A stretch of 64,000 nt of DNA, taken from Shewanella mesophila (GTDB lineage: Bacteria; Pseudomonadota; Gammaproteobacteria; Enterobacterales; Shewanellaceae). A program made the position numbers and the translations under genes. Each line of letters opens with the position of its first letter. Position 1 is the stretch's first letter. The DNA is taken from assembly GCF_019457515.1 (NCBI RefSeq), contig NZ_CP080421.1, positions 2,542,001-2,606,000 on the forward strand, in the 5' to 3' direction. A model generated the notes under the pieces. The model searched no databases, was not told the origin of the DNA, and saw only the letters and a list, made by a program, of their open reading frames with translations. Below are positions 30,213-33,104 of the stretch, piece after piece.

Positions 30213-31649
30213 ATGGTTCAACTAAATCAAAATTTTATCAATAGCATAGCTCAAGAGATCCCCGAACATCTTTCGATGGATGATTTTATCGCCTATAGTG
30301 CGATGCCACTCAGACCATCGATTCGGGTTAATACACTCAAAATATCGACGGTGCATTTTATTGCGCTGATGCAAGCAAAAGGTTGGCAGTTTGAACCGAT
30401 TCCATGGTGTGACGCTGGTTTTTGGGTCACGGTCGAAGATAAGGTGCAACTGGGCAATACCATAGAGCATATTCAAGGACTGTTTTATATTCAAGAAGCC
30501 AGTTCAATGCTACCTCCCCTTGCTCTGTTTCCAGATGCAATAGCAACTCCAGCTGACTTGACCCTGTTAGATATGGCTTCTGCACCGGGATCAAAAACAA
30601 CTCAGCTTGCAGCAATGATGTACAACCAAGGCTTGCTTGTTGCTAATGAATACTCATCTAGTCGAGTCAAAGTACTGCACGCTAATGTATTACGAATGGG
30701 GGTAAAAAATACCGCATTAACCCATTTCGATGCTCGGGTCTTTGGTGAGTATCTCTATGATACTTTCGACGCTATTTTACTCGATGCACCTTGCAGTGGT
30801 GAAGGCACAATACGTAAAGACCCTGATGCGTTAAAGCATTGGGATTTTAGTGAGATTGAGTCGATTGCAAATACACAAATAGACCTGATAGAGTCTGCTT
30901 TCCTCGCCTTGAAAACCGGCGGCTCTTTAGTCTATTCAACCTGTACACTCAATCGCACAGAGAACCAACAAGTCTGCCTACACCTTAAGCAGCTTTATCC
31001 AGACGCAGTTGAGTTTGAGTCACTCGCCACGCTATTTCCTGATGCCGACAAAGCCTGTACCCCAGAGGGTTTTTTGCATGTTTGGCCACAGATTTATGAT
31101 AGCGAAGGTTTCTTTATCGCAAAGATAAAAAAGATTGCCGATATTGAGCGCGCCGTTCCAGAGCCAAAACGACAGAAAAACTTCCCCTTTAGCGCCGCCA
31201 GTGACAAACAAATAACGGCGCTCGAAGAGTATGTTCAATCAAGTTTCGGCATCACGTTAACGGAACATGGGGTGATAATGCAGCGTGATGATGAATATTG
31301 GTTATTTCCGCATAACATCATGCCATTGATCGGTAAGATCCGCTTTCAGCGCATTGGTATTAAAATTGCTGACGCGCTCAAGAAGGGCTTTAAAGCCCGC
31401 CACGAAGCCATTATCGCATTGGCTACAACAACGAATAGTATTGAGTTAGATGAGCAACAAGCGATTAGCTACTTAATGGGTCGTGATATCATGCTCGATG
31501 CGAAAGTTAACCCCATGGGAGAGCAACTAGTCAGTTATCATCAAGCAAACCTTGGTATTATTAAGCACTTAGGGAATAAACTAAAAAATAGCCTTCCTAG
31601 GGAGTTGGTTAAAGACAAAATTTGTCCTTCGTTAAATGAAAAGCTGTAA
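30213..31649 (+). CDS. rsmF: 16S rRNA (cytosine-1407-C5)-methyltransferase
   Basis: A 478-residue m5C methyltransferase like E. coli RsmF (YebU), which modifies C1407 of 16S rRNA in the assembled 30S subunit. The SAM motif is LDMASAPGSKTTQLAAM. The two catalytic Cys are in LLDAPCSGEGTIRKD and VYSTCTLNRTENQQ. The C-terminal third holds the RNA-binding PUA-like domains of the family. A TATACT box about 40 bases before the ATG is a possible -10. Confidence 0.94.
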   Translation: MVQLNQNFINSIAQEIPEHLSMDDFIAYSAMPLRPSIRVNTLKISTVHFIALMQAKGWQFEPIPWCDAGFWVTVEDKVQLGNTIEHIQGLFYIQEASSMLPPLALFPDAIATPADLTLLDMASAPGSKTTQLAAMMYNQGLLVANEYSSSRVKVLHANVLRMGVKNTALTHFDARVFGEYLYDTFDAILLDAPCSGEGTIRKDPDALKHWDFSEIESIANTQIDLIESAFLALKTGGSLVYSTCTLNRTENQQVCLHLKQLYPDAVEFESLATLFPDADKACTPEGFLHVWPQIYDSEGFFIAKIKKIADIERAVPEPKRQKNFPFSAASDKQITALEEYVQSSFGITLTEHGVIMQRDDEYWLFPHNIMPLIGKIRFQRIGIKIADALKKGFKARHEAIIALATTTNSIELDEQQAISYLMGRDIMLDAKVNPMGEQLVSYHQANLGIIKHLGNKLKNSLPRELVKDKICPSLNEKL

Positions 31650-31738
31650 GTCGCAGAAATTAGATGAGCAGGGATCGGCGGGGAAAGGCCATAGCAATAA
31701 TAGTAGATCGCCAACCCCAAAGGAGTTGACACATTTTG

Positions 31739-31768
31739 TTACATTAAAGTGTGCTTAAAATTTATACT
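31739..31768 (+). promoter_or_regulatory. candidate promoter of the small RNA
   Basis: TTACAT (31739-31744) and TATACT (31763-31768) are 18 bases apart; TTATAC one base earlier gives a 17-base spacer. It points toward the hairpins and terminator that follow, starting transcription near 31775. Confidence 0.45.
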
Positions 31769-31774
31769 GAAGAA

Positions 31775-31907
31775 GCAGCTAGCTAAAGCTTGACTACAAT
31801 AAAGGTCTGAGAGCAAATAGAGGCAATCTCAAACAGTAGCGCACGGCTCTGCAAAGAGCCATTCCCCTAGACCCAGAACAATTGGAATAGTTTTGGGTCT
31901 TTTTTTG
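31775..31907 (+). ncRNA. candidate small RNA between rsmF and tatD
   Basis: This 133-base stretch has no protein-like frame but three stems in a row. They are TGAGA/TCTCA (31808-31812 with 31827-31831), a perfect GGCTCT-gcaa-AGAGCC (31845-31850 with 31855-31860), and a terminator stem AGACCCAGAAC/GTTTTGGGTCT (31869-31879 with 31890-31900) followed by seven T. GGTCT at 31804-31808 could pair with AGACC at 31869-31873 as an alternative to the terminator stem. It does not match any small RNA or riboswitch I know. It is convergent with tatD and lies about 95 bases after the MTase stop. Confidence 0.5.
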
Positions 31908-31943
31908 TCTGTCTTTTCTTGCCTGTAATACCAACCCGTTAAT

Positions 31944-32732
31944 TTATCGACCGACTAACTTCGCCGCATCTTTAAACAGACTAAAAAAGTTACTAGATGT
32001 GTAATCGGCTAACTCTTCAAATGACTCCCCTCTCAACTCTGCGACAAACTCAGCGACATCACGTACAAAAGCGGGTTGATTTTCTTGACCACGATGAGGA
32101 ACGGGGGCTAAATACGGCGCGTCGGTTTCGACTAGAAGGCGATCTTTCGGGACTTTGCGAATCACAGTACGCAGCTCACCAGCATTCTTAAAGGTAACAA
32201 TTCCCGAAACCGAGATATAAAAACCGAGATCGATAGCCGCTTTAGCCATTTCCCAGTTTTCGGTAAAGCAATGTAATACGCCTCCCACTTTATCCGCATG
32301 ACCCGCCTTAAGTAACGCTATGGTATCTTCTCTCGCATCTCGAGTGTGGACAATCAGTGGCTTATTGACCTCAACCGCTAATTCGATTTGTTGCTCGAAA
32401 CAAGATTGTTGTAATGCCTTAGTATCATCGGCATAGAAATAATCTAAACCCGTTTCACCAATAGCGACAACTTTTGGATCTTTGATATATGAATGTAACT
32501 CAAGGGTATCTAACCCCTCTTTCACATCCAGAGGATGAACACCAGCCGATAGAAACACTTGCTCAAATTCAGCCATTTTGGCCTGCATGGCCGCAAAACC
32601 TTTTTGGCGTACATTCACGCAAAGGAAATAGTCGACGCCACGTGATTTAGCTTGAGCGAGGATCTGGGTTAACGAGGCATGATCGGGCGCTATTTTGAGG
32701 CGATCTAAGTGACAGTGTGAATCGATAAGCAC
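31944..32732 (-). CDS. tatD: TatD family metal-dependent hydrolase
   Basis: About 262 residues, an amidohydrolase-like TIM-barrel enzyme of the YcfH/TatD group with 3'-to-5' DNA exonuclease activity in some members. Metal ligands are in DSHCHLD (N-terminus), GETGLDYF, HTRDARED, HCFTE and ETDAPYLAP. I start at the GTG at 32732 (MLIDSHCHLD), which fits homologs. A TTG at 32744 adds four residues and has no ribosome-binding site. It is the last gene of the mrp-to-tatD run and follows pilZ by 45 bases; in E. coli it follows holB. Confidence 0.93.
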   Translation of the reverse strand: MLIDSHCHLDRLKIAPDHASLTQILAQAKSRGVDYFLCVNVRQKGFAAMQAKMAEFEQVFLSAGVHPLDVKEGLDTLELHSYIKDPKVVAIGETGLDYFYADDTKALQQSCFEQQIELAVEVNKPLIVHTRDAREDTIALLKAGHADKVGGVLHCFTENWEMAKAAIDLGFYISVSGIVTFKNAGELRTVIRKVPKDRLLVETDAPYLAPVPHRGQENQPAFVRDVAEFVAELRGESFEELADYTSSNFFSLFKDAAKLVGR

Positions 32733-32777
32733 GCTTATTTCCAACTAAACAACGAAAAAGGAGGCAAGCATACCTAG

Positions 32778-33104
32778 CTACATAGTACAGGTCAAATCAC
32801 TGGACGCCAGCTCGCGAGACAACAGATTCTCTATATGATGTTTGTGGGTTGTCGCATCGGACGTTATTTTTACCCCGATTCCAGCAGGTCGACCACCCGA
32901 TGCGCCTAGAGGATTGATCCACACCACAACTCCTTGAAACTCGTGCTTCACAGTAGAACCAGGTAATTGGTAGACAATCGACAACTCTTGGCCTAAATAA
33001 TGGCTTTCAGTCGTCGCAACGAAAAGGCCCGCAGGCTGAATAAACGGCATGTAAGCACGGTATAGCTGATGTAAAGTATCAAAATTAACTACGAGATCGA
33101 CCAT
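32778..33104 (-). CDS. pilZ: type IV pilus assembly protein PilZ
   Basis: A 108-residue PilZ-domain protein needed for type IV pilus biogenesis. True PilZ of this type usually lacks the RxxxR and D/NxSxxG residues that bind cyclic-di-GMP. Here no RxxxR is visible in the N-terminal part, so c-di-GMP binding is doubtful. VVVWINPLGASGGRPAGIGVKI is the conserved core. It lies eight bases after holB and before tatD, the usual position in Pseudomonas and Shewanella. Confidence 0.9.
   Translation of the reverse strand: MVDLVVNFDTLHQLYRAYMPFIQPAGLFVATTESHYLGQELSIVYQLPGSTVKHEFQGVVVWINPLGASGGRPAGIGVKITSDATTHKHHIENLLSRELASSDLTCTM

Follow-up and report, generated by a model that had tools for sequence, protein, structure and literature searches.

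Almost certainly SdsR (RyeB): the small RNA in the gap between rsmF and tatD in Shewanella

Two convergent genes of this Shewanella genome are separated by a gap in which a small RNA had been proposed from the letters of the DNA, and the question is whether that RNA is real and, if so, whether it is one already known. The window analysed here is the whole 64 kb stretch. The gap occupies 31650-31943, and profile matches on both sides confirm that it lies between rsmF and tatD, as had been claimed:

30213 to 31649, plus strand: rsmF, the upstream neighbour (NCBIfam RsmF NF008898, 773.4 bits, cut-off 588)
31944 to 32744, minus strand: TatD-family hydrolase gene, the convergent downstream neighbour (TIGR00010, 290.9 bits, cut-off 206)

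The TatD-family gene also matches PRK10812, at 327.9 bits, below the cut-off of 438. Just upstream of it, a 108-aa frame on the minus strand (32778-33104) matches TIGR02266, which we take to resemble the PilZ domain, at 41.9 bits, below the cut-off of 68.7.

The preliminary description of the locus had proposed a search of Rfam and an alignment with related genomes; both were run, and they settle the identity as SdsR, conserved across the genus. The Rfam model RF00111 (SdsR_RyeB) matches 31812-31906 on the plus strand at 79.7 bits, where the gathering score is 38 (E 3.2e-13 over the entire window), and the match covers positions 1-100 of the 100 in the model. This model was judged sufficient. 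When the whole 64 kb is compared with Rfam, the only other match is to the antisense relative RF00101, at the same locus. Besides scoring above the gathering score, the RNA has the conserved central core and hairpin followed by a Rho-independent terminator that mark an SdsR. Its parts are as follows:

31807 to 31906, plus strand: SdsR (RyeB) small RNA, predicted at about 100 nt (RF00111 match and fold)
31808 to 31831, plus strand: 5' stem-loop, TGAGAGC ... GC/TCTCA (MFE and centroid structures; genus support)
31832 to 31844, plus strand: conserved unpaired core AACAGTAGCGCAC, the probable main pairing region (near-invariant from TAGCGC on)
31845 to 31860, plus strand: central perfect hairpin, GGCTCT-GCAA-AGAGCC (fold)
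31861 to 31868, plus strand: unpaired linker ATTCCCCT from the central hairpin to the terminator (highly conserved in the genus profile)
31869 to 31906, plus strand: Rho-independent terminator with an 11-pair stem, a 10-nt loop and six T (fold; covariation)

We are almost certain that the small RNA is real and that it is the Shewanella orthologue of SdsR (RyeB), the RpoS-controlled base-pairing small RNA. The Rfam match, the presence of the RNA throughout the genus and covariation all support the proposal that this convergent gap holds a three-stem small RNA with an intrinsic terminator, and RF00111 gives a known name to what had been described as an RNA not recognised. The family is already known, and a standard Rfam search recovers this Shewanella copy. 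The candidate is a conserved RNA and not an orphan, with its likely start and its flanks fixed; start, flanking genes and probably partners differ from those of E. coli SdsR, and it is not a new kind of RNA. In the literature searched, whose scope does not take in two central SdsR papers (10.1093/nar/gkr1156, 10.1073/pnas.1613053113), there was no paper on SdsR or RyeB of Shewanella. The main text of the S. piezotolerans WP3 small RNA survey (PMC5471319) names neither SdsR nor RyeB, and a term search of PMC5826389 gave no match.

The second Rfam match raises the question of an antisense partner:

31764 to 31910, minus strand: RF00101 (SraC/RyeA) match, most likely only the complement of SdsR (50.1 bits, gathering score 37)

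According to PMC6610125, E. coli RyeA is a sigma-70 transcript that begins downstream of sdsR and runs across it. The same two-RNA arrangement here would mean a dedicated minus-strand RNA of the RyeA type that destroys SdsR in growing cells, and the minus-strand match, being above the gathering score, speaks for it. We nevertheless consider such a pair unlikely. RF00101 and RF00111 are complementary and belong to one clan (CL00105), the posterior of the match is low beyond the SdsR part, and the match is most likely to be read as the complement of SdsR. There is also little room before tatD: from the T-run of SdsR to the tatD stop the median distance is 43.5 nt over 94 Shewanella loci, so a promoter placed as in E. 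coli would mostly fall inside tatD. In 3 of 95 loci a sigma-70-like site directed back into sdsR attains 9 of 12, which is rarer than in shuffles (18%), in a scan that is weak in that the RyeA region of E. coli itself scores only 8 of 12. No such site was found on the minus strand of 31000-32600 by a pattern scan that also missed the -10 proposed for sdsR. The likeness to RyeA/SraC thus consists in a minus strand that matches the model as the complement of SdsR; the difference is that the weak scan found no sigma-70 promoter of its own downstream of sdsR on the opposite strand, and that the space before tatD is small. An antisense RNA could arise by read-through from tatD.

For SdsR itself, a promoter and start can be proposed from a motif shared by the genus:

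31794 to 31800, plus strand: sigma-S-type -10, CTACAAT (6/7 to CTAYACT; genus consensus CTACACT; genus support)
31805 to 31809, plus strand: predicted transcription start, G31805 to G31809 (from the E. coli distance between -10 and start)

Of the 95 Shewanella loci whose core can be recognised, 56 have a perfect CTAYACT, compared with 0.9% of shuffled windows and 0.3% of coding control windows. The motif in our window, at 6/7, would be ordinary alone (about 17% of shuffles reach 6 or more), and it is accepted because the support comes from the genus-wide motif and not from its own score. CTACAAT is one base off the best sigma-S form and could be read by sigma-70 polymerase; no -35 is claimed. 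Choi et al. 2019 (PMC6610125) mapped the start of E. coli sdsR and so moved its 5' end downstream by one base; in the E. coli sequence, the mapped start follows the C of the -10 at a distance of 13 nt. By the same geometry, the Shewanella transcript would start near 31807 and be about 100 nt long. A palindrome around the -10, hinted at by a few sequences, was dropped when it gave no signal over 63 loci.

This -10 sits 30 bases downstream of the promoter TTACAT-18-TATACT from which the preliminary description had a transcript of about 130 bases begin. The letters exist (TTACAT at 31739-31744, 18 bases, TATACT at 31763-31768), and the 169-nt stretch that they open, 31739-31907, folds well (z -3.1; 1 of 200 shuffles as good). 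An unrelated, lineage-specific RNA of about 130-140 nt read from them, in which GGTCT and the terminator arm would act as a switch, is nonetheless very improbable in view of the RF00111 match. Of 96 loci, 5 have TATACT or TATAAT there, and those columns, like the sequence upstream of 31790 in general, are poorly conserved. A length of about 130 bases is not supported, the conserved sigma-S-type -10 pointing to about 100 nt. The alternative fold fares no better: GGTCT (31804-31808) straddles the predicted start and lies almost wholly outside the transcript, so it can hardly pair with AGACC of the terminator arm. Both the upstream promoter and the GGTCT/AGACC switch were set aside for these reasons of conservation and start position. 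The pattern scan had overlooked the terminator, with its 10-nt loop, as well as the -10, so its zero is no evidence against either.

The 100-nt SdsR transcript (31807-31906) is predicted to fold into three stems, with a z of -3.2 and 1 of 200 shuffles as good. Two of these had been described before as a perfect hairpin and a T-tailed terminator, and they are as claimed: GGCTCT pairs perfectly with AGAGCC at 31845-31860, and six T separate the terminator hairpin (31869-31900) from G at 31907. The third is the 5' stem at 31808-31831, which is predicted here and supported in the genus. The core between the 5' stem and the central hairpin is unpaired in the predicted fold, and its near-invariance can be seen both in the order alignment A1 and in the genus profile.

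Covariation was counted in 56 diverse sequences of the order with <85% identity, chosen from 118 loci and aligned as A1; three were excluded beforehand, L107 and L121 because they are without the core and L108 because it scores below the cut-off. In the terminator, 9 of the 11 pairs have changed on both sides among the 56 sequences, and 97.2% of cells are paired. For the whole structure, there are 66 cells with a change on both sides; shuffles give 11.8 such cells, slid versions of the structure no more than 13, and none of 500 shuffles was as high. The five pairs of the central hairpin are invariant in 56 of 56 sequences, so the hairpin is neutral as covariation evidence.

The 5' stem was assessed in the genus. 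In the 38 nt before the core, 23 of 95 Shewanella loci fold better than 95% of shuffles, while four control stretches of about 95 loci each give 11, 5, 4 and 2, counts to be read knowing that the loci are related and not independent. A helix of at least 4 pairs is present in the predicted fold of 91 of the 95 loci, with 47 different arm pairs that include GAGA/TCTC, AAAGCGC/GCGCTTT, TGGCATC/GATGCCA and TTACC/GGTAA. The 5' stem is kept in the genus while its letters turn over.

Of 97 genomes sampled from the genus, 96 carry SdsR, each with a score over the cut-off; in the order it is found in 100 of 197 genomes, 92 of them over the cut-off. An exact SdsR sequence pattern matched 7 stretches, all from Shewanella. 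In a sample of the class it was found in 3 of 369 genomes, all three from the same order, with strict filters that lose weak matches; among 14 control genomes, E. coli alone scores. The single Shewanella genome without an SdsR match (G095, L124) has other neighbours around tatD, and no Rfam match was found in the 3.8 kb around that gene; the sdsR locus seems to have been lost there by rearrangement. Another genome (G053, L108) has a second SdsR match, sub-threshold at 34.2 bits, that resembles the terminator part only.

The order rsmF(+)-sdsR(+)-tatD(-) is found in 92 of the 96 Shewanella loci, and the other four show one of the two genes within 1.5 kb. Outside the genus, rsmF is upstream in 9 of 24 loci (E. 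coli included) and tatD downstream in 7, with at least one of them in 12. In E. coli, sdsR is flanked by yebY and pphA and stands a few genes away from rsmF, in the opposite direction, whereas in Shewanella it lies between rsmF and tatD and has the same direction as rsmF. A yebY gene 5' of sdsR was reported for the first described homologues, as cited in PMC5913331, and does not define the family; within 1.5 kb of sdsR, yebY was found in none of the 96 Shewanella loci. The rsmF-sdsR-tatD order looks older than the enteric arrangement. That the locus merely ends the transcription of rsmF and acts as a barrier against tatD, with no RNA gene of its own, is the least credible reading, for although a strong terminator does stand downstream of rsmF in the same direction, a bare terminator needs neither an unpaired core and central hairpin conserved from relatives of E. 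coli to Shewanella, nor a -10 motif at a conserved place, nor the independence of its neighbours seen in enteric genomes, where the same RNA stands beside other genes.

Some genomes keep only part of SdsR. The core and central hairpin are missing, and linker and terminator kept, in two Shewanella genomes, G001 (L107, 1501-1584, minus strand) and G577 (L291, 246-310), in one further genome of the same family, G491 (L121, 1501-1610, minus strand), and in seven genomes of other families (L292 to L298). The linker in these reduced variants reads TTCCCCTA or TTTCCCTA, and it is thus retained where the central hairpin has been lost. Of the variants that were run on Rfam again, five exceeded the cut-off narrowly, at 39.9 to 44 bits, and L121 scored below it. 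Because they remain where core and central hairpin are missing, linker and terminator look like the least dispensable part of SdsR.

With SdsR of E. coli and Salmonella, the Shewanella RNA shares the core TAGCGCACGGCTCT...AGAGCCATTYCCCT, the central hairpin, the terminator, a sigma-S-type -10 and the lack of a protein frame, and its predicted length of about 100 nt would be similar; the 5' third has little sequence in common with E. coli. SdsR of E. coli is about 100 nt long, dependent on RpoS and bound by Hfq (PMC6610125, PMC10954441), and PMC10954441 describes 124 mRNA targets in long nitrogen starvation, with yeaG as a direct one. Both proteins are encoded in our genome: RpoS at 457 bits (cut-off 379) and Hfq at 99.7 bits (cut-off 61.7). 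By analogy with E. coli and Salmonella, from which RpoS dependence, Hfq binding, timing and mode of action are taken, transcription would start near 31807 at the sigma-S-type promoter and stop at the terminator (31869-31906), giving about 100 nt. The RNA would accumulate when RpoS is active, in stationary phase and starvation, and would bind Hfq. The unpaired core AACAGUAGCGCAC may then be its main site of pairing with mRNAs, perhaps together with the linker AUUCCCCU, and such pairing would lower the translation or stability of the target.

Possible targets were scored with a home-made, accessibility-weighted duplex calculation against a background of Shewanella start regions, which served for E. 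coli as well. In E. coli, tolC did well (3 of 120 background genes as low) and yhcB fairly well (9 of 120), mutS was missed (96 of 120) and yeaG was placed at a site (19 of 120) other than the published one at -31 to -22 (PMC10954441). Having missed a known target and misplaced another, the scoring is a weak instrument. In our genome, the best predicted yeaG pairing joins AGUAGCGCA of the core to AGCGCUAUG at +26 to +34 and is within the best 2% of start regions (12 of 669 background genes as low); yeaG reaches the best 5% in 9 of 30 genomes of the genus. The stretch UUUUAGCGCA, which matches the core, is the best-scoring one for E. coli tolC in the same scoring. The predicted yeaG site falls in codons 9-12, whose letters are also constrained by the protein that they encode, and differs from the one published for E. 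coli. Thus, yeaG as a kept target is weakly suggested, and given its coding location, its different site and the weak scoring, the pairing is a lead only. Unlike in E. coli, pairing with tolC or mutS is not predicted in Shewanella: it is not enriched in the genus, with mutS in the best 5% in 3 of 29 genomes and tolC in 0 of 29, and the function may therefore have drifted.

A broader picture can be offered tentatively, as one that is possible but that we hold somewhat less probable than its opposite. Shewanella SdsR would act without a dedicated RyeA antitoxin and on largely rewired targets. Its 5' stem would change fast, its core would stay fixed and might pair with yeaG, and tolC and mutS would not be under its control. 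In several lineages of the order, which include two Shewanella genomes, it would be reduced to linker and terminator. Should the reduced variants and the lack of an antisense partner be borne out, Shewanella and its relatives would be a natural test of which parts of SdsR are needed, and also of how general the toxin-antitoxin role described in E. coli is.

Two of the E. coli targets call for a further remark. The mutS gene is in two pieces in G001 (L179) and has one in-frame TAG in G009 (L178); both genomes are drafts, in which an assembly error is possible. The yhcB gene is the E. coli target tied to SdsR toxicity. A gene of the ZapG/YhcB family (Pfam PF06295) was not detected in our own genome, where a divergent copy is possible; across the genus, 16 of 30 genomes have such a gene.
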